From Dyella amyloliquefaciens (GTDB lineage: Bacteria > Pseudomonadota > Gammaproteobacteria > Xanthomonadales > Rhodanobacteraceae), in the NCBI RefSeq assembly GCF_004296575.1, contig NZ_SAYT01000001.1, forward strand, positions 838,856 through 902,855: a stretch of 64,000 nucleotides of DNA. Direction: 5' to 3'. The notes under the pieces are model-generated. The model was not told the origin of the DNA, did no database searches, and was given only the letters and a program-made list of their open reading frames with translations. Positions 16,479 to 56,854 of this stretch are shown piece after piece. Position 1 is the stretch's first letter; each line of letters opens with the position of its first letter. The translations under genes and the position numbers were made by a program.

Positions 16479-17531
16479 TTAGGAAAGGGGACAGCTGCTT
16501 TCGCGCACGACCAGCTCCACCGGCGCGATCACGGTGCTCGCCGGCGCCTGCGGGTCACGCAGGCGGGCGAGAAGAAGTTCGGCAGCCTGGCGGCCGCGTG
16601 CTCTCGGTGCGGTGGAGAGCGTCGTCAGCGGCGGCACGCTCATGGCGGCCTCGGCGATATCGTCGAAGCCGGTGACGGCGAAATCGCGTCCGGCCTGCAG
16701 GCCGCGCTGGTGCAGGCCGAGGATCAGGCCCAGCGCCACCGCGTCGTTGTAGCAGACCGCCGCGGTCGGCATGCTGCCGCCTTCGAACAGCGCCGGCGTG
16801 GCGCGCACCGCATCGATGCGCGTGGGCGTGCTTTGCACGCGCCAGTGCGGTTCGATCGGAAGTCCGGCCGCCTTCATCGCCTGCACGTAACCGGCATGGC
16901 GTTCGCGCGTGGAGCTGGCGTCGTCATGGCCGCCGAAGAAGGCGATGCGCCGGTGACCACGCGAGATGAGGTGCTCCGTCACCATGCGCGCACCAGGCTG
17001 GTTGTCCAGCATCAGGCGATCCCAGTGCGCGTATTGCGGCAGGCGTCCGCCCAGTTCGCGGTTGAACAGCACCACCGGAAGATGCCCGCCGATGGCGCTG
17101 AGCACGTCACGCGCTTCGCTGCCTTCGGCCGGCGAAAGAATGATGCCGCCCGGACCATGTTCGATCAGCGAACCGAGCACGGCCTGTTCGCGCGTGACCG
17201 ATTCGCCGGTGCTGCCCAGCAAGGTGACGAAGCCCGCTTCGCCCAGGGTTTCGTCCACGCCTGCGGCGAATTCGGCGAAGAACGGATTGGACAGCTCGTT
17301 GACCACCAGCGCGATGCTGGACGACGTGCGTCGACGCAGGTTGGCGGCGGCCCGGTTGTAGACGTAACCCTGCTTGCGCAGCTCTTCTTCCACGCGGGCT
17401 CGCGTGTGCTTGTTCACCAGCGGGCTGCCGCGCAATACCAGCGACACCGTGGCACGCGACACACCGCAGCCGGCAGCGATGTCGCTGAGCGTGGTCTTGC
17501 GGTGGACGGGGGCGGAGCTTTCCGTGGCCAT
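16479..17531 (-). CDS. LacI-family repressor of the mannoside locus
   Basis: LacI/GalR regulator (350 aa). The N-terminal helix-turn-helix and hinge read TLSDIAAGCGVSRATVSLVLRG ... YVYNRAAANLRRRTSSSIALVV; the periplasmic-binding-protein-like effector domain follows. It lies between the mannosidase genes (divergent) and the transporter-kinase-isomerase genes (same strand), so it probably represses both arms and is released by mannose or a mannoside. I chose the ATG at 17531; the longer in-frame start at 17564 is a TTG. A LacI-type palindrome 17-33 bp upstream (17551-17564) suggests autoregulation. The C-terminus is complete. Confidence 0.9.
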   Translation of the reverse strand: MATESSAPVHRKTTLSDIAAGCGVSRATVSLVLRGSPLVNKHTRARVEEELRKQGYVYNRAAANLRRRTSSSIALVVNELSNPFFAEFAAGVDETLGEAGFVTLLGSTGESVTREQAVLGSLIEHGPGGIILSPAEGSEARDVLSAIGGHLPVVLFNRELGGRLPQYAHWDRLMLDNQPGARMVTEHLISRGHRRIAFFGGHDDASSTRERHAGYVQAMKAAGLPIEPHWRVQSTPTRIDAVRATPALFEGGSMPTAAVCYNDAVALGLILGLHQRGLQAGRDFAVTGFDDIAEAAMSVPPLTTLSTAPRARGRQAAELLLARLRDPQAPASTVIAPVELVVRESSCPLS

Positions 17532-38679: not shown

Positions 38680-39939
38680 TCATGCAGCGCCTTCAGGCGC
38701 CAGTGGTGCCGGTATGGCGCGATCGGTTTCGCGCTTGAAGAAGAACAGCGTCACCAGGATCAGCGTCATCGGCAGCAGCGAGAAATAGAACGCGTGGATG
38801 CCACCGAAGCTGGAGAACACCAGTGCGGTGATGCGCGAGCCCAGCGTGCCGCCCAGCGCGGAGAAGATCACGATCAGGCCGGTCATCGACGCGTGGGAAG
38901 GCTTGGGCAGCGAGCTCAGCGCCACCGAATTGATTACGGGATAAATCGGCGCCATCAGCAGGCCGATCAAGGGAATGAGATAAGCCGCGAGCGGTGCGTT
39001 GAACCAGCCGGTATCGGCCGACACGGTGGCCTCGCGTGCAAGCGGCAGCACCAGCACAATCAGCGCCGCCATGCCGACCACGCACAGGTTGAGCAGCACG
39101 TGCCAGGGCATGCGACGCAGCAGTTGCCCGGCGAGGATGCGGCCCAGCGCGGTGGCGCCGGCGAGGATGCTCGCCATCTGGATACTCATCGCATTGGGCA
39201 GCTTGAGGATCTCGTTGTTGAACGTCGGCAGCCAGGTGCTGAAGCTCTGTTCGATCAGCACGTAGAGGAAGGCCGAGAGCAGGAATACGTAGACCAGCGT
39301 GCGCATCAGCAGTCGATACATCTGCCGGAACGCCTGGCCCATCGACGATGCCGTGCCGCCATGCGCCGCCGACTCGTCGAGATTCGCGCCCCACAGCAGC
39401 ACTACGGTGCCGAAGCACATCGCCGACAGCACCCAGTACACGTTGAACCACGACGGGTTTTCAGGGTGGGCGTGGTCGATGAATGCGCTGAACAGCCAGC
39501 CGCTCGCCAGCACGCCCAGCATGAATAGGCCTTCGATGGTGTTGGTGAGACGACCGTGCTCCACCTTGTCGTTCGTGAGCAGGCCGATCGAGGAATACAC
39601 GGAGACCTTCGCCAGCGCGAACGACACGCCGACGCAGGTGAACAGCAATTCGGTGGTGTGGAAACTTGGATAGAGCGGCATCAGCGCGCACGCGCTACCT
39701 ACGATCACCAGCGCGAGGATCATGGCGCGGCGATAGCCCAGCTTGGGCAGGAAGGACGCCACCAGGAACGAGGTGACGGCAATCGGAAGGTCCTTGAACA
39801 GTTCGAGCAGGCTGGCCTGCGGCTTGTCGATGCCGAAAGTCTGGATGGACTGCAGGATGACGGTGCCCACGCTGTTCAGCAGGATCGCGAAGACCATGTA
39901 AATCGTCGCCAGCGCGGCGATCATGCGGTACCGGTTCAT
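38680..39939 (-). CDS. MFS sugar transporter
   Basis: Major facilitator transporter (419 aa) with twelve predicted helices, e.g. MIAALATIYMVFAILLNSVG, MILALVIVGSACALMPLY and YLIPLIGLLMAPIYPVINSV. The last segment, with its PxYPxxxS pattern, resembles sugar-transporting FHS-type members. I chose the ATG at 39939 (MNRYRMIAAL) with GAGGTGGGG just upstream; the longer frame to 39984 lies towards the TonB gene terminator. It probably brings the sugar released in the periplasm across the inner membrane, to the cytoplasmic GH65 phosphorylase. The substrate is inferred from neighbours only. Confidence 0.85.
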   Translation of the reverse strand: MNRYRMIAALATIYMVFAILLNSVGTVILQSIQTFGIDKPQASLLELFKDLPIAVTSFLVASFLPKLGYRRAMILALVIVGSACALMPLYPSFHTTELLFTCVGVSFALAKVSVYSSIGLLTNDKVEHGRLTNTIEGLFMLGVLASGWLFSAFIDHAHPENPSWFNVYWVLSAMCFGTVVLLWGANLDESAAHGGTASSMGQAFRQMYRLLMRTLVYVFLLSAFLYVLIEQSFSTWLPTFNNEILKLPNAMSIQMASILAGATALGRILAGQLLRRMPWHVLLNLCVVGMAALIVLVLPLAREATVSADTGWFNAPLAAYLIPLIGLLMAPIYPVINSVALSSLPKPSHASMTGLIVIFSALGGTLGSRITALVFSSFGGIHAFYFSLLPMTLILVTLFFFKRETDRAIPAPLAPEGAA

Positions 39940-39962
39940 CCCCACCTCGTTTGACCAGGCCC

Positions 39963-40004
39963 AAAAAGGTTCCGGGGCCGACACGGTGTCGGTGGCCCCG
40001 GAAC
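39963..40004 (-). terminator. Hairpin after the TonB receptor gene
   Basis: Arms GTTCCGGGGCC (39969-39979) and GGCCCCGGAAC (39994-40004) enclose a second small stem GACAC/GTGTC. On the minus strand a CTTTTTGG run follows. It could attenuate transcription between the receptor gene and the transporter gene rather than stop it completely. Confidence 0.7.
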
Positions 40005-40023: not shown

Positions 40024-42546
40024 TTAGAACTTGTACTTCACGGACACATTCACCTCACGACCTTCCAGCGGTCGGGCCAGGATCACGCCATCGGAACCTG
40101 CCGCCGAACCGAAGATACGCGAGTTGCTCTCGGTGAGGCCCAGCTGGTTCGTCATGTTGGTGCCCTGCAGGCGCAGTTCCCAGTTCTGCTGGATGTTGGC
40201 CACGATACCGAAGTCGAGCGTGTAGTAGGTGCCGAGCTGCTGCAGGCCGGACTGATCCTGCGTATGCGGACCCACATAGGTGTAGGTCACGAAGGCCAGC
40301 ACATCGCCCCACGAGAACGGCATGTCGTAGCTCGGGGTGAACATGTAGCGGTGCTTCGGCTGGCGCTGCAGCTGCACGCCGTCGATGTAGGCGCAGCCGT
40401 TGCCGGCCACCTGGTTCACGTACGGGATACAGGCCGAGTAGTGCGAGTAATGGCCGTCGAGGTAGTTGGCCACCAGCTGCAGCTTCAGGTGATCGATCGG
40501 CGTGACCGCACCCACCAGGTTGACGCCCTTCGAGTCCGAACCGTACAGCAGCGGCTGGCCGACCGGCACGCCTTCGCCGTTGGTCGGCTGGTAGGGCAGG
40601 CCGTTGAACTGGCGGTGGTAGGCGCTGATGTCCGCGTAGACGTACTTGTTCTGGAACTTGAAGCCGCCTTCGAAGTTCTGGACCTTCTGCAGCGGCGGCG
40701 TGTTGCCGGTGGTGTTGCCGCGCAGCGCGTTGTCGAAGTCACCAAAGTGCGCACCCTTGTTGGCGCGGACGTACACCGACATCTGGTCGGTGATCTCGTA
40801 GTTCACGCCGAACGTCCACGAGGTGTGGGTCTTGTCGTAGTTGGTGGTGGCGAAGGTGCCGTTGCAGACCGGCACGGCATTGTCGTAATCGGTGAGCGGA
40901 TTGCCGTCGAGATCCCTGTTGGTGGTGTTGCACACGTGCAGGGTGGAATCCTGGTTCTCCACGCGAGCGCCCACGTCGATCAGCCACTTGTCGATGCGCC
41001 AGGAGTCGGTGAGGTAGAACGCCTTGTTGGTCGACTGGCCGTGCTCGGTGATGTTGTAGGAGCCGTAGTCGAGCAGGCCCTGGTAATCGGTGAGCTGGTG
41101 GGTCAGGCCGTCCTTGCCGACATAGCTGACCTGGATGGGTCGCGCGTTCGGCGTATTGGTCATCAGCATCTGGTTGCCGAGGTTCCACTCATCGTTGTCG
41201 GTGTAGTGGGCCAGGTACAGGCCGGCAGTAAGCGTATTGCCTTCGAAGATTTCCTTGCTGATGTGGAAATCGTTGTTGACGTTCTTCAGGTGCTTGTGGA
41301 TGAACCACCAGCCCTGGTGGATCACGCTCTGGTTCGGATCGACCGTGCCGCCGCCGTTGACGTAGGTGGCCTTGGCCGAGCCGGCCGGCAACGCAAAGCC
41401 GCCGAAGTCGGTGCTGAGGTTGTACAGCTCGTCATCGAGGCTGGCCGGGTTGGTGCCCGAGAAAAGCGCATTGGTGTCGACGTCGCCGCCATCGATGAGG
41501 AACTTGTCCGAGATGTTCCAGCCGTCGCCCAGGTCGTAGTCGAAATTCATGCCGATGAAGCTGAACTTCGCGCCGCGGCCGTTGGCCAGGTTCGCGCTGG
41601 TGCCGCCACCGGGGTAGCCCGGCAGGTTCACATGCTGGATGTACTTGCTGTTGTACGTGTCGGTGAGCGGATCAAAGCCCGGGTAGGCGCTGAAGTTGTC
41701 GGTGCCGGTCTGGATCAGCGGGATCGGCGTGATGAACTGGTTGCGGTCGTTGAGCTGGCGGGCGTAGAACACCAGCGAGCCGTTGTCCATGTCATGCGAG
41801 ATCGTGGCGGTGAACTGGCCACCCTTGTCGGCCGGATAGCCCGGGCTGCGCACACCGTCCGAATCGCGGTAGAAGCCGCCGATGCTGCCGTACCACTTGT
41901 TTCCCAGCGGGAAGCCGAGGAAGCCATCCGTGCGCCACAGGCCTTCGTTGCCGTAGGTCATGCCGATGCTGCCGCTCGGCACATCGGTACCCTGCTTGAG
42001 GATGAAGTTGGCGGTGGCGCCCATCTGGCCATCGCCGTACATCACCGACGGACCACCCTGCAGGATTTCCGCGCGCTCGACGGTGTCGTCGAGGCGGAAG
42101 ATCGAGGTGGTTTCGAAGAACGAGAGCGTGGGCATGCCGTACAGCGGCGAACCCATCATCTGCGTGGTGAAGAACGGTGCGTCGCCGCCGCCCGGGAAGC
42201 CGGCGATTTCGATGTTCGCGCCGGTCTGGCCGCCGGTGGATTCAGGCCACATGCCCGGCGACACCTTCAACAGGTCGGCCGTGCTCTTGGGGTTGGCTTC
42301 CTTGATCTGCTCGGCGCTGACGCTGACCACCGAGTAGCTGGCGTCGATCTTCTTCAGGCCGCCTGCCGCGGACGTACCCGTGACCACCACCTGGTCGAGC
42401 GTCTTGGCGCTTTTGGCGTCCGTGGGAGCGGCAGGCGCCGGCCCCTGATTCTGCGGTGTTGCGTCCTGAGCGTGCGTTGCGCCTACCGCCAAGGCGGTGA
42501 AGATCGCGGCTGCGAGTAACTGTCGGGTGATGCCTTGCGTGTTCAT
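40024..42546 (-). CDS. TonB-dependent outer-membrane receptor
   Basis: TonB-dependent transporter (840 aa). Signal peptide (LLAAAIFTALAVGATHAQ), TonB-box-like segment (DQVVVTGT), plug domain (SAEQIKEANPKSTADLLKVSPGMW split as SAEQIKEANPKS and ADLLKVSPGM) and a 22-strand barrel ending in the aromatic terminus VSVKYKF. It belongs to the Xanthomonas-type receptors found beside glycoside hydrolases and should import an oligosaccharide or modified alpha-glucoside. The ATG at 42546 begins the signal peptide; the upstream in-frame extension is arginine-rich and not plausible. It follows the GH65-mutase fusion by 31 bp. Confidence 0.92.
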   Translation of the reverse strand: MNTQGITRQLLAAAIFTALAVGATHAQDATPQNQGPAPAAPTDAKSAKTLDQVVVTGTSAAGGLKKIDASYSVVSVSAEQIKEANPKSTADLLKVSPGMWPESTGGQTGANIEIAGFPGGGDAPFFTTQMMGSPLYGMPTLSFFETTSIFRLDDTVERAEILQGGPSVMYGDGQMGATANFILKQGTDVPSGSIGMTYGNEGLWRTDGFLGFPLGNKWYGSIGGFYRDSDGVRSPGYPADKGGQFTATISHDMDNGSLVFYARQLNDRNQFITPIPLIQTGTDNFSAYPGFDPLTDTYNSKYIQHVNLPGYPGGGTSANLANGRGAKFSFIGMNFDYDLGDGWNISDKFLIDGGDVDTNALFSGTNPASLDDELYNLSTDFGGFALPAGSAKATYVNGGGTVDPNQSVIHQGWWFIHKHLKNVNNDFHISKEIFEGNTLTAGLYLAHYTDNDEWNLGNQMLMTNTPNARPIQVSYVGKDGLTHQLTDYQGLLDYGSYNITEHGQSTNKAFYLTDSWRIDKWLIDVGARVENQDSTLHVCNTTNRDLDGNPLTDYDNAVPVCNGTFATTNYDKTHTSWTFGVNYEITDQMSVYVRANKGAHFGDFDNALRGNTTGNTPPLQKVQNFEGGFKFQNKYVYADISAYHRQFNGLPYQPTNGEGVPVGQPLLYGSDSKGVNLVGAVTPIDHLKLQLVANYLDGHYSHYSACIPYVNQVAGNGCAYIDGVQLQRQPKHRYMFTPSYDMPFSWGDVLAFVTYTYVGPHTQDQSGLQQLGTYYTLDFGIVANIQQNWELRLQGTNMTNQLGLTESNSRIFGSAAGSDGVILARPLEGREVNVSVKYKF

Positions 42547-42577
42547 GGTCGTGCCTCCCCGCCCAAATCGGGCCACT

Positions 42578-45500
42578 TTACGTGTTGATATGCGACGCTT
42601 CGGCACACTCCGCCGTTGCGCGGTTCTTGTCTTCAACGAACTCCACGATGCGGAACTCGGTCAGGCCCGGCAGCACGACATCTGCCTCCCCAAGGGCCTC
42701 GCGATGGCCTATACCTACGGCGACCATGCCCGCAGCACGGATACTGGCAATGCCCGCGGCGGCGTCTTCCACGCCCAGGCAAGCGCCCGGCGCGACGCCC
42801 AATCCAGCAGCGGCGGCCAGGAAAATTTCAGGGTCAGGCTTGGAGCGCTCGATTTTCGAAGCGTCCACGATGTAGTCGAACAGATCGGCGATGCCGAGCC
42901 GCTCCAGCAACAGCGGCGCGTTGCGGCTCGCCGAAGCGAGCCCGACACGCAGGCCGGCGTTACGCGCCGCCTCGACAGCGCTGCGCGCACCCGGCAGCAG
43001 GTTGTCGGGGCCGAAGCTGCCGATCTGTTCGCGGTAATAGCGGTTTTTCCGTTCGCTGAGTTCGTCCTTCTCTGCTTCGGCATATGAACGCGGTGCGCGT
43101 TCGAGGAGGATCTCCAGCGAGCCGCGGCGATCCACGCCCTTCATGCGTTCGGCAAGCACTTCATCGAACGGCGCGTCGATTTCCCGAGCAAGCTGTTCCC
43201 ATGCCGCGCGATGCACCACGGCGGTATCGGCGATCACGCCATCAAGATCGAAGATCACCGCGCGCAAGGCTTGCTGCGCACCGGCAACGCAGTGCGGCAA
43301 CGACAACGCCTCGCCCTGGCGCAGATGCACCAGCTCGCCTTCATGGCGGAAACTCGCTTCGTCGCCGCGGGTGAGCGAGTAGCGCACCCCGGACTGGCTG
43401 ACCTCCACGCGCAGATGCGAGCCGCGCCACTGCAGGCCAAAACGGTAGCCGCGCCATGCGTCCGGCAACTGCGGGGACAGCGACAGCTCACCGTGATGGA
43501 TGCGCACGCCGCCGTAACCCCAGCACAGCGCCAGCCAGCTCCCGGCCATCGCGGCCATGTGCACACCGTGCGCGGCGTTGCCGTGCAGGTCGTCCAGGTC
43601 CACGCGCAAGGTGTCCTGGAAATAGCGCCAGGCCTTGTCTGCTTCGCCCACTTCCGCGGCGATCACGCTGAAGGTCGACGCCGAAAGCGTCGAATCATGC
43701 ACCGTGACGCCTTCGTAGTAATCGAAGTTGCGGCGTTTCGCATCGCGCGACACGTCATCGCCTGCGAGCACCAGCGAAAGCAGCGTGTCCGCCTGCTTGC
43801 AGACCTGGTGCCGGTAGATGCTGAGCGGATGCAGCTGGAGCAGCAGCGGGCGCTTGGCCGTGCCGTGTGCCGGCGCGGGCATGCGCGGCTTGTCGAGGAA
43901 GGTGTCGTCCTGGGGGAAGATGCCGAGCTCGGCGTCCTCGCGCAGGTACATGGCATCGGCCGCACGCAGCCACTGCATCACCTCGAACGACTCCAGGCCG
44001 ATGCGGCGAGAGAGTTCACCGAAGAAGCGCGGGTCGTATTCCTCCAGCCAGTGCGCGACCTGCGCCGCATCGCGCAGATGACGCTGCGCCATGCGATTGG
44101 TGTAGTGGTTGTTGTCCACCAGTGCGGTGTATTCGTCCGGACCGGTGACGCCGTGGATGCAGAAAGCGCCACCGCGTCGTGCATTGAAGTGCCCGATGTC
44201 CAGCCAGATGCGCGCCGTCTCGAACAGGATCTCCGCGCCGTGGTCGCGCAGGAATCCAAGGTCGCCGCTCACGTCCACGTACTGGCGGATCGCCCAGGCG
44301 ACGGCGGCATTGATGTGGTACTGCGCCGAGCCGCTGGGGAAGTACGCCGAACACTCGTCGCCATTGATGGTGCGCCACGCATACAGCGCGCCGCGCGCAT
44401 GATTGAGTTCGCGCGCGTGATGGCGTGCGCGCTCGAGCGTGCGGTAACGATAGGTGAGCATGCCGCGCGCCAGTTCCGGCGCGAGCGTCACCATCGCGGG
44501 CAGCATGAACGCCTCGGCGTCCCAGAAATAATGGCCTTCGTAGCCTTCGCCGGTCAGGCCCTTGGCCGCGGTGCTGCTGTGCCCGTCGCGGCTGCTCGAC
44601 TGGAACACGTGGAAGAGGTTGAAGCGCAGCGCCTGCTCGGTATGCGGATCGCCGTCGACGGCGAGGTCGGCATGGCGCCACAGCATGTCGAACATCACGG
44701 CCTGGCGTGCCAGCAGTGCGTCGTAACCGGTTTCCTGCGCCTTCAGCAGGCTGGCGTCGGCCTGATCGAGCAGCGTCGTATCGGCATCGTCGCCGTGCGG
44801 CGCGGTCCAGGCGTAAGACACGTATTTCTCGAGAACGACCGACTCACCGGGAATCAGCTCGCCTTCGTAGACCTGCATGACGCCATGGGGCGCGAGGTTG
44901 GCGAGGCGGAATCCGAGCTGGCTGGCGTCGTAGGCGTGGCGCTGCATGCAGGCGACGCGAATCCCGCTGTGTGCCGTGTGCTGGAGCACGTAGGCCTGGT
45001 CTTCCTCGGCGCGGGCATCGTAGGTGGAAAAGCCACCGTCCAGGCGCGTGCCGATGCGCGGATCGTCGCCTTGTTCGACGGCATCGCGTGCCGTGCTGAG
45101 GGAGGACTCCAGCGTGATCGGCCCGTGGTAGTCGACCGAGCGCACGCGATAGCGGATGGCGAGCAGGGCGGGCGCGTCCAGGCAGACGATGCGCTCGGCT
45201 TCGATCTCCAGCGTGGCGCCATCCGGCGACCGCCAGCGCAGGCGACGTCGGTAGCAGCCAGTGCGCAGGTCGAGGGCGCGCTCGAAGTGGAGCCATTCGC
45301 CTTCGCTCAGTCGCACCGGCGTGTCGCCCAGGCGCAGATGGATACGCGTGCCGTCGGTGACCGGCACTCGGGTATCGGTGTGTGCCGCAAAGCCGGGGAA
45401 GCGTTCGTGGTATTCGATGGGCGCACGTTCCCACGCCCCGGCGAGGAAGCAGCCCTGGCTCGGGCTGTCATCCTCCTCGAGGCCGCCGCGGACGCCCAGA

Positions 45501-45637
45501 CTGCCGTTCGAGAGGGCAAACAGGCTTTCGTCCTGGGCGAAAGCGGCGGGGTTCGTCTGGCAGCGGGTCAGCAGCCAGGGGTCGCAAGGCCTGCTATGCG
45601 CAGGCGGCATGACCGACGCCGTTTCATGGTGATCCAC
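42578..45637 (-). CDS. Fusion of GH65 glycoside phosphorylase and beta-phosphoglucomutase
   Basis: Two enzymes in one chain (1019 aa). Residues about 20-775 are a GH65 disaccharide phosphorylase: catalytic acid Glu502 in HGVTGPDEYT and phosphate-binding motif VHDSTLSAST. Residues about 790-1019 are a HAD-type beta-phosphoglucomutase: Asp797/Asp799 in VIFDLDGVIAD, ASASRNAP, Lys in ERSKPDPEIF and GVEDAAAGI. Inverting phosphorolysis of an alpha-glucoside (trehalose, maltose, kojibiose or nigerose) gives beta-glucose-1-phosphate, which the mutase turns into glucose-6-phosphate without loss to the medium. There is no signal peptide, so it is cytoplasmic. The GTG at 45637 has AGGGAG five bases upstream; longer frames would run into the operators. 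First gene of the operon. Confidence 0.9.
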   Translation of the reverse strand: MDHHETASVMPPAHSRPCDPWLLTRCQTNPAAFAQDESLFALSNGSLGVRGGLEEDDSPSQGCFLAGAWERAPIEYHERFPGFAAHTDTRVPVTDGTRIHLRLGDTPVRLSEGEWLHFERALDLRTGCYRRRLRWRSPDGATLEIEAERIVCLDAPALLAIRYRVRSVDYHGPITLESSLSTARDAVEQGDDPRIGTRLDGGFSTYDARAEEDQAYVLQHTAHSGIRVACMQRHAYDASQLGFRLANLAPHGVMQVYEGELIPGESVVLEKYVSYAWTAPHGDDADTTLLDQADASLLKAQETGYDALLARQAVMFDMLWRHADLAVDGDPHTEQALRFNLFHVFQSSSRDGHSSTAAKGLTGEGYEGHYFWDAEAFMLPAMVTLAPELARGMLTYRYRTLERARHHARELNHARGALYAWRTINGDECSAYFPSGSAQYHINAAVAWAIRQYVDVSGDLGFLRDHGAEILFETARIWLDIGHFNARRGGAFCIHGVTGPDEYTALVDNNHYTNRMAQRHLRDAAQVAHWLEEYDPRFFGELSRRIGLESFEVMQWLRAADAMYLREDAELGIFPQDDTFLDKPRMPAPAHGTAKRPLLLQLHPLSIYRHQVCKQADTLLSLVLAGDDVSRDAKRRNFDYYEGVTVHDSTLSASTFSVIAAEVGEADKAWRYFQDTLRVDLDDLHGNAAHGVHMAAMAGSWLALCWGYGGVRIHHGELSLSPQLPDAWRGYRFGLQWRGSHLRVEVSQSGVRYSLTRGDEASFRHEGELVHLRQGEALSLPHCVAGAQQALRAVIFDLDGVIADTAVVHRAAWEQLAREIDAPFDEVLAERMKGVDRRGSLEILLERAPRSYAEAEKDELSERKNRYYREQIGSFGPDNLLPGARSAVEAARNAGLRVGLASASRNAPLLLERLGIADLFDYIVDASKIERSKPDPEIFLAAAAGLGVAPGACLGVEDAAAGIASIRAAGMVAVGIGHREALGEADVVLPGLTEFRIVEFVEDKNRATAECAEASHINT

Positions 45638-45720
45638 GCTCTCTCCCTGGCACGTTGTCGGCTTTGTGGGCGGCCGGCTCATGCGAGGGCAGCCCTGCTC
45701 TTGAAGTGGGCCGGAGCTTA

Positions 45721-45762
45721 CAGCAATTGATATCGATATCAAGATATCGATATCAATTGCTG
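45721..45762. promoter_or_regulatory. 42-bp double operator palindrome
   Basis: Two 20-nt arms (CAGCAATTGATATCGATATC and its reverse complement) around a central AA. Each arm contains the 12-bp palindrome GATATCGATATC, at 45729-45740 and 45743-45754, with centres 14 bp apart. The central CG and flanking AA/TT fit a LacI-family operator. Confidence 0.85.
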
Positions 45763-45781
45763 TATCGCAGCATCATTCGGA

Positions 45782-45800
45782 GTGATATCGATATCAATTG
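45782..45800. promoter_or_regulatory. Third operator copy
   Basis: GTGATATCGATATCAATTG. The 12-bp core GATATCGATATC lies at 45784-45795, 41 bp (about four helical turns) from the middle copy, closer to the lacI gene. Confidence 0.8.
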
Positions 45801-45922
45801 CGAAGAGGAGAGTGTGCTAGAAAGTGGGCGCACAGAGAGTGCCTTGTCCCCGGACTGCCCCCCAAGCCAGTGTTGGACGCGTCGGTCACAAACCGGGACA
45901 CTTGCTGCTGCCACGGTCGGCG

Positions 45923-46987
45923 ATGGCGCGGACTCCCGCGACATCATTCACAAGACATTGGGGCCAGGTCTTGAGTCGTAACCATAAGAAAGAAGAGGGT
46001 GTTTCGTCGCTTCCTGCCAGCCTCACCATGGCCGATCTGGCCAAGGTGGCCGGTGTATCCAAGATCACCGTGTCGAGGGCCTTGAGCGATAGTCCGCTGG
46101 TCAATCGCGAAACCCGGGAGCGCCTGCAGGCGCTCGCCCAGAACCTTGGCTACAAGCTGAACGTCAGCGCCCGCAACCTGCGTTTGCGGCGGAGCCACAC
46201 GGTCGCGGTGATCGTGGAAATGAAGCCCTCGCATGACCGCACGATGCTCGATCCGTACCCGCTGATCCTGCTGGGCGGCATTTCCCAGGAACTGACGGCC
46301 CATGGTTACAGCGTGCTGCTGACCACCCGCCAGGGCGCAACGGCCGCCGCCGTGCAGGCGGCCGATGGACTGATCCTGCTGGGCCAGGGTTCTCGCCAGG
46401 ACGCGGTGCGCCGCTTCGACAAGCTGGGCCTGCCCATGGTGGTGTGGGGCGCGCCGGGCGAGGGCGACGAGCACGTGGTGGTGGGCAGCGACAACCGCCA
46501 GGGCGGCAGCGTGGTCGCGGACCATTTCATGGCGCTGGGGCGCCGCAACCCGGTGTTTGTGGGCAACCCCAATCACCCTGAAATTTTCGATCGCCTCAAC
46601 GGCTTCGTCGATGCACTCGCGGCGCACGGCATCAAGCCGCTGCTGATCCGACGCGATGAGTTCACCCTCAACTCGGGCATGGATGCGATGTATTCGCTGA
46701 CCGAGCGCAAGGTGCCGTTCGATGCGGTGTTCGCCTGCAGCGACCTGCTCGCGATGGGCGCCATCCGCGCACTCAACAAGCTGGGCCGCAGCGTGCCCGG
46801 CGATGTATCGGTGGTGGGCTACGACGACATGCCGATCGCGTCCAGTTCCCTTCCGCCGCTGAGCTCGGTGCGACAGGACTGGCAGGAAGGCGGCACGCTG
46901 TTGGCGCGCAAGGTGCTCGCCATGATCAGCGACAAGGCCGTGCACTCCGAGGTGCTGCCGGTGGAGCTGATCGTTCGCGAGACGTGA
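45923..46987 (+). CDS. LacI-family repressor of the alpha-glucoside locus
   Basis: LacI/GalR repressor. The helix-turn-helix reads TMADLAKVAGVSKITVSRAL and the hinge region is YKLNVSARNLRLRRSHTVAV; the effector domain follows to VVGYDDMPIAS and the usual C-terminus. It is divergent from the GH65-mutase operon and faces three operator copies, so it very likely represses that operon and itself. The start is uncertain: the frame is open from a GTG at 45824; ATGs at 45923 and 46028 and a TTG at 45971 (SRNHKKEEG) are possible. I list the ATG at 45923. The inducer would be trehalose-like or a derived sugar. Confidence 0.88.
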   Translation: MARTPATSFTRHWGQVLSRNHKKEEGVSSLPASLTMADLAKVAGVSKITVSRALSDSPLVNRETRERLQALAQNLGYKLNVSARNLRLRRSHTVAVIVEMKPSHDRTMLDPYPLILLGGISQELTAHGYSVLLTTRQGATAAAVQAADGLILLGQGSRQDAVRRFDKLGLPMVVWGAPGEGDEHVVVGSDNRQGGSVVADHFMALGRRNPVFVGNPNHPEIFDRLNGFVDALAAHGIKPLLIRRDEFTLNSGMDAMYSLTERKVPFDAVFACSDLLAMGAIRALNKLGRSVPGDVSVVGYDDMPIASSSLPPLSSVRQDWQEGGTLLARKVLAMISDKAVHSEVLPVELIVRET

Positions 46988-56821: not shown

Positions 56822-56854
56822 AAAAAGGCCGGTGGTTTCCCACCGGCCTTTTTT
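56822..56854. terminator. Bidirectional terminator between nadE and bamD
   Basis: Stem AAAAAGGCCGGTGG (56822-56835) / CCACCGGCCTTTTT (56840-56853), 4-nt loop, A and T runs on both sides, so it serves both convergent genes. Confidence 0.93.

Follow-up and report, generated by a model that had tools for sequence, protein, structure and literature searches.

Between a sugar phosphorylase gene and a divergently encoded regulator gene of the LacI family, the genome of Dyella amyloliquefaciens carries a long inverted repeat which holds two copies of an operator-like motif, is broken only by a central AA and is followed by a third copy nearby. The locus raises the question of what two operators fused in this manner would do, and why an otherwise perfect symmetry is interrupted at its center. 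In order to answer it, the window, that is, the whole stretch of 64,000 nucleotides that was analyzed, was compared at this locus with named relatives, with 233 genomes (26 genera) of its own family, and with other families of the same order. Direct reading of these genomes gives the sites and the distances between them, shows that they occur together with the regulator and with the phosphorylase gene, and reveals the conserved promoter-like hexamers. The fused pair is very probably a double operator of the divergently encoded LacI-family repressor, placed over the promoter of the phosphorylase–phosphoglucomutase gene.

Operator Sites and Palindrome

The 12-bp motif GATATCGATATC occurs in exact copies starting at positions 45729 (A), 45743 (B), and 45784 (C) of the window; the three copies and the distances between their centers, 14 and 41 bp, are as claimed in the preliminary description of this DNA. 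In detail, the core of operator A (45729–45740) is proximal to the GH65 phosphorylase gene and belongs to a 16-bp form, TTGATATCGATATCAA, at 45727–45742. The core of operator B occupies 45743–45754, with its center 14 bp from that of A, and the core of operator C occupies 45784–45795, with its center 41 bp from that of B. All three are even palindromes with a central CG (two GATATC halves), which is the form of LacI-family motifs according to the available text of a survey of this family (PMC4052901). The centers of A and B lie 97 and 111 bp, respectively, before the start codon of the GH65 gene, and the same text gives 30–140 bp as the usual distance of a LacI-family site before its gene (PMC4052901).

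Operators A and B are contained in a palindrome at 45719–45764 (like the cores, assigned to neither strand), which consists of perfect 22-bp arms around the AA at 45741–45742. The AA is indeed its only interruption, as first described, but its length is 46 bp and not 42 bp. Dinucleotide shuffling of the window, repeated 25 times, gave maximal perfect arms of 9–11 bp when gaps of up to 4 were allowed, and thus the palindrome is not a product of chance. The second-best inverted repeat of the real window, located at 56822–56853 with 14-bp arms and a 4-bp gap, also exceeds the range of the shuffles and could be a terminator.

Flanking Genes and Regulator

To the left of the palindrome, the minus strand carries the gene of a GH65 phosphorylase fused to a beta-phosphoglucomutase (42578–45637), whose GTG start at 45637 is proposed on the basis of conservation and of an AGGGAG preceding it. 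The Pfam domains PF03632, PF03636, and PF03633 are all found in this gene and identify it as a GH65 phosphorylase, the beta-phosphoglucomutase part scores above the cut-off of TIGR01990, and the best solved relatives of the GH65 part are a kojibiose phosphorylase (3wiq) and a maltose phosphorylase (1h54). Behind GH65, on the same strand, follow the open frames of a TonB-dependent receptor (40024–42636) and of an MFS transporter (38680–39984), both given as frame limits with putative starts. These two genes are presumably expressed from the same promoter as GH65.

To the right, the gene of the LacI-family regulator is located on the plus strand (45971–46987), with a TTG start proposed from conservation. 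At 45971–46027, the LacI orthologs share this likely TTG start and a partly basic extension of ~20 residues ahead of the usual first residues of the helix-turn-helix (HTH). The orthologs of the closest named relatives, also Dyella, show identities of 95% (L021) and 91% (L020), and all six orthologs that were aligned have the same recognition helix, SKIT-V/I-SRAL, and the same hinge, ARNLRLR. A candidate promoter of lacI, TTGGAC-N18-GACACT, is found at 45873–45902 on the plus strand, outside the three operators; it is conserved in the window's genus and similar in most of the 12 sequences of a second genus.

The alignment of the regulator to LacI of Escherichia coli covers residues 4–328 of 360, and the protein ends with ...LIVRET. 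The C-terminal tetramerization helix is absent from this alignment, and the regulator is therefore expected to be a dimer, which makes a loop of the lac type unlikely. The short repression loop initially suggested for these sites is consequently unsupported.

Distribution of the Fused Pair

The search with the LacI protein retrieved 22 named loci, 20 of which are distinct at the operator, with the window counted in. The pair is found at 14 bp with its central AA in all 22. In these relatives it is flanked by GH65 and lacI, with the exceptions of L035 and L039, where lacI is ~2.8 kb from the pair. At L035 (3356–5614), transposase-like and membrane-protein-like frames, labeled so by reading, are situated between the operator pair and lacI and may explain the separation there.

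The pair was then sought as a 26-bp composite with up to three mismatches. Among the 233 genomes of the family, 83 genomes from 15 of the 26 genera carry it, in one place per genome, and the reversed pattern used as a control gave no match in the same 233 genomes. Order-wide, matches were found in 47 of 398 genomes, all of them in the window's family, and in none of the 273 genomes of 11 other families. In all 83 composites, GH65 is on the left and on the minus strand, and in 78 of them lacI is on the right and on the plus strand; in the other five, lacI is adjacent but reversed (two cases) or 2.8–4.3 kb away (three cases).

An ortholog of the regulator (E value up to 1e-95) is encoded by 109 of the 233 genomes. 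The upstream regions of the 26 ortholog genomes left were scored with a matrix which was built from the 83 composites and favors AA, and 18 of them carry the composite at 4–5 mismatches, raising the total to 101 of 109. The spacing of the pair is 14 bp in each of the 101 composites and in 101 of the 103 GH65-linked loci, the exceptions being L156 and L169 (the named loci overlap the family genomes, so that the two sets are not independent, and kinship inflates all of these counts).

Eight of the 109 ortholog genomes are without the composite. In two of them (L155 and L178), the upstream region is cut by contig ends. In L169, GH65 and lacI are adjacent, and residues 1–80 of lacI are missing together with the operator stretch, through a deletion or an assembly error. 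L156 (1137–1214) has kept site A and has no site B; a second site is found 66 bp nearer to GH65, possibly as a replacement architecture. The last four loci (L163, L164, L167, and L168) have an MFS gene in place of GH65 and no 14-bp pair. In L163, L167, and L168, the sites are 19 bp apart, B being weak in L167, and the half of A which reads TTGATA toward the MFS gene is kept in all three. In L164, the MFS gene is at the left and one site is seen.

A Predicted Promoter within the Double Operator

The central AA is present in all 101 composites and has the same direction relative to GH65 in all 83 that were checked. A fused site with AT at its center would be a perfect palindrome, and since this change costs a single mismatch, the search would have detected it in a copy that is otherwise close. 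On the minus strand, the join of the two sites reads TTGATA in 97 composites, TTGTTA in three, and TTGACA, which is the sigma-70 consensus of the −35 hexamer, in one. Downstream of it, a hexamer with A in the second and T in the sixth position (e.g., TATGCT, CAAGCT, and TAAGCT) is found in 101 of 101 composites, behind a spacer of 17 bp (91 cases), 18 bp (six), or 16 bp (four); this rule was derived from the named relatives, a set that overlaps with the 101, and the genomes are related, so the counts are not independent. In control placements further downstream, such a hexamer occurs in 65 of 1212 (5%), and at any other single offset from 8 to 45 in at most six of the 83 composites. By this rule, conserved −35 and −10 hexamers 16–18 bp apart, as expected of a sigma-70 promoter, are found in the entire set. 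In the window, conservation points to TTGATA at 45737–45742 on the minus strand as the predicted −35 hexamer, overlapping the inner half of A and the central AA, and to TAAGCT at 45715–45720, on the same strand, as the predicted −10 hexamer, with a spacer of 16 bp.

The −10 hexamers are weak: at spacer 17, they agree with TATAAT at 2.72 of 6 positions on average, and values of 2.45 and 2.46 are obtained at offsets 9 and 14, which fall inside operator A, although the pair of A and T is absent there. The generic sigma-70 scan of the window, at a stricter threshold, returned no promoter site, and the promoter is therefore weak at best. Most likely, the GH65 promoter is built into the double operator, in such a way that the greater part of the spacer, together with the inner portion of the −35 hexamer, would lie within A, and B would be placed just upstream of this hexamer. 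The AA would then be kept because the join doubles as the −35 hexamer toward GH65. The preliminary description missed this predicted promoter within the palindrome, and with it an explanation of the central AA.

The AA may also have been kept in order to weaken site B. Of all four half-sites, the inner one of B varies most: it is GATATC in 52 of the 83 composites, compared with 70 for its counterpart in A and with 61 and 56 for the two outer half-sites. However, a −35 hexamer in the join better accounts for the orientation of the AA and for the one composite with TTGACA. A symmetric bidirectional promoter, with the TTGCTG at both ends of the palindrome as −35 boxes, was also considered and was rejected, since the outer symmetry is short outside a few genera.

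With the promoter in the join, a repressor dimer on A, or on both A and B, would block RNA polymerase, and B would add affinity or a second dimer. The ligand that releases the repressor would be a sugar, probably an alpha-glucoside resembling kojibiose, maltose, or trehalose, or a product thereof. We infer the binding, the repression, the inducer, and the extent of the operon from the sequence.

Half-Sites, Symmetry, and Binding Mode

For the comparison of half-sites, the 101 composites were sorted into 47 genus-by-type combinations, with shared ancestry left in. Between A and B, identical outer halves are seen in 37 of the 47, where 17.2 are expected and none of 5000 shuffles is as high, and matching inner halves are seen in 18, where 17.8 are expected by shuffling. 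In our reading, the inner halves seem to be tied to the −35 hexamer and the outer halves seem free to follow the preference of the repressor. In two nontrivial types (four genomes), A and B are repeated head to tail and are not mirrored. The mirror symmetry continues unbroken past the core for a median of at most 4 bp in 10 of the 15 genera and for 9–10 bp in four genera, including that of the window. The window, L020, and L021 differ pairwise in both arms simultaneously.

The invariant spacing of 14 bp leans toward an occupation in which A and B would be filled together rather than in turn, and cooperative binding at the sites is possible. We tentatively consider that two dimers could sit side by side at 14 bp with their inner half-sites on opposite faces of the DNA, while RNA polymerase would read the join as a −35 hexamer; the AA would then represent a compromise between the symmetry of the repressor and the direction of the promoter. 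To our knowledge, side-by-side dimers at 14 bp are a binding mode without a known structure.

It may also be that A and B are alternative and mutually exclusive sites, a possibility to be taken seriously, in which a single dimer would hop from one to the other and occupancy would rise without a second dimer. According to the available text of the survey, dimers ~13 bp apart cannot interact and tetramer binding is hard to square with structures, and its authors allow for a special binding mode with partial unwinding (PMC4052901). L156, moreover, manages without B. Exclusive sites, on the other hand, need no exact spacing, yet the GH65-linked loci keep 14 bp with the two exceptions given above; at any shorter distance, the two contact zones would overlap, if each measures 7 bp as in the available survey text (PMC4052901). 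The half-site variants, the locus without the second site, and the sister loci with 19 bp make the question of one dimer or two directly testable.

The symmetry might be maintained by template-switch repair of an imperfect palindrome and not by selection on two protein sites, which we regard as improbable. The agreement of the outer halves and the simultaneous changes in both arms of the window, L020, and L021 are in favor of such repair; it should, however, have made the inner halves alike and removed the asymmetry of the central AA as well, and neither is seen. Outer halves that follow the preferred half-site of the repressor and inner halves tied to the −35 hexamer are the simpler explanation.

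The Probable Cognate Regulator and Other Copies of the Motif

All 83 genomes with the composite at up to three mismatches encode the LacI ortholog, and the composite is present in none of the 124 genomes without it (Fisher P = 2e-40, the relatedness of the genomes being ignored). This co-occurrence indicates that the product of the neighboring lacI gene is the likely ligand, and bears out the partnership of the flanking lacI with these LacI-type operators that had been proposed at the outset. That a different regulator binds the sites is very unlikely. Ten LacI-family genes are found in the genome, the flanking one included, and lacI is at a distance from the pair in L035 and L039; nevertheless, the ortholog is still nearby in both of these loci, and the composite, at up to three mismatches, occurs solely in ortholog genomes. 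Among the nine other LacI-family genes, the recognition helix could be read by pattern in three, and all three differ from the flanking LacI. A second HTH of the LacI family is encoded in the window at 17361–17492 on the minus strand (G000:C1:856216–856347).

The 17 contigs of the genome (4.83 Mb) contain the 12-mer GATATCGATATC in four places, namely A, B, C, and C10:131088, the last inside an open frame of 903 codons. The 16-bp form TTGATATCGATATCAA with up to three mismatches matches 21 places, and its reversed control pattern matches three. Operator A has no mismatch, C has one, B and C11:169333 have two each, and the other 17 places have three. Twelve of the 18 places other than A, B, and C were inspected (L008–L019). 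All 12 fall within open frames that run from stop to stop over 114 codons or more, and for 10 of them the frame has at least 356 codons, which suggests that they are coding in this G+C-rich DNA. The genome scan called for in the preliminary description therefore yields no other convincing copy among the inspected places (12 of 18) and, to that extent, supports a local regulon.

The palindrome could hardly act as RNA, either as a hairpin in the GH65 leader or as a terminator: judged from the sequence alone, 46 bp with a 2-nt center could form a strong hairpin and the outer halves do co-vary, but the palindrome is upstream of the predicted GH65 transcription start (about 45708), a scan found no terminator-like site in 45600–46000, the inner halves do not co-vary, two types are arranged head to tail, and the mirror symmetry beyond the core is short in most genera.

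Comparison with Known Systems

The lac operator of E. coli, with AATTG as its outer half, is likewise an even palindrome with an outer half similar to that found here, and the two repressors share their fold. Unlike E. coli LacI, the regulator of the present locus ends at LacI residue 328 and is without the tetramerization helix, and no distant operator is recognized here.

In the 2014 survey, as far as its available text goes, overlapping LacI-family sites ~13 bp apart precede 110 operons without a structural explanation, GntR at gntKU of E. coli being an example (PMC4052901). The present locus resembles these pairs in having two LacI-family sites ~1 1/3 turns apart before a sugar operon. It differs from them, to the extent that this text describes them, in its distance of 14 bp, in the fusion of both sites into one long palindrome, and in the −35 hexamer at the join (PMC4052901). 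Its spacing is also constant, at this one locus, in 101 genomes of a single family. Similarly to the regulator described here, CytR of E. coli is a LacI-family protein with unusual site layouts; in the available text, its inverted repeats were 10–13 bp apart in selection experiments, and it acts together with CRP at a variable spacing (PMC3454398), whereas the spacing is fixed here.

Operators of the LacI family are known, as are tandem sites and, from the available survey text, overlapping sites at ~13 bp (PMC4052901). In the literature searched, no description was found of a single invariant spacing of 14 bp across a family or of a −35 hexamer in the join. This literature, with few subscription papers within reach, contained no description of the operator and nothing on Dyella and kojibiose, and the letters of the 12-mer appeared in it in unrelated contexts (cancer cells, plants, and parasites), as judged by titles and the beginnings of abstracts. 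As a switch, the locus is of a common type, but its form is unusually rigid. With its fixed spacing in 15 genera, it provides a single-target case of an acknowledged puzzle, and it makes available a short, strongly conserved promoter, predicted to be regulated, for the bacterial family of the window.

The Third Site

In the window's genus, each of the 15 genomes with the composite also has operator C, 41 bp from B in 14 cases and 39 bp in one, and a site at this distance is found in none of the 68 composites outside the genus; this screen covered the 83 composites and not the 18 added later. The five members of the genus without the composite are also without the LacI ortholog. Among the named relatives, a third site with up to two mismatches is found in 10 of 22 (L020–L028 and L030). 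The third site is therefore peculiar to one genus and the fused pair is family-wide, a distinction that the preliminary description missed.

Operator C is located at about −82 from the predicted GH65 transcription start and well upstream of the promoter-like pair of lacI, and overlaps neither predicted promoter. It lies on nearly the same face of the DNA as B (41/10.5 = 3.9 turns), and is probably an auxiliary operator.

The same screen of the 83 composites shows one weak candidate for a third site, with three mismatches, on the GH65 side in L114. In two of the 68 composites outside the genus (L098 and L107), an extra site is placed 13 bp from B, forming three sites in a row at distances of 14 and 13 bp.
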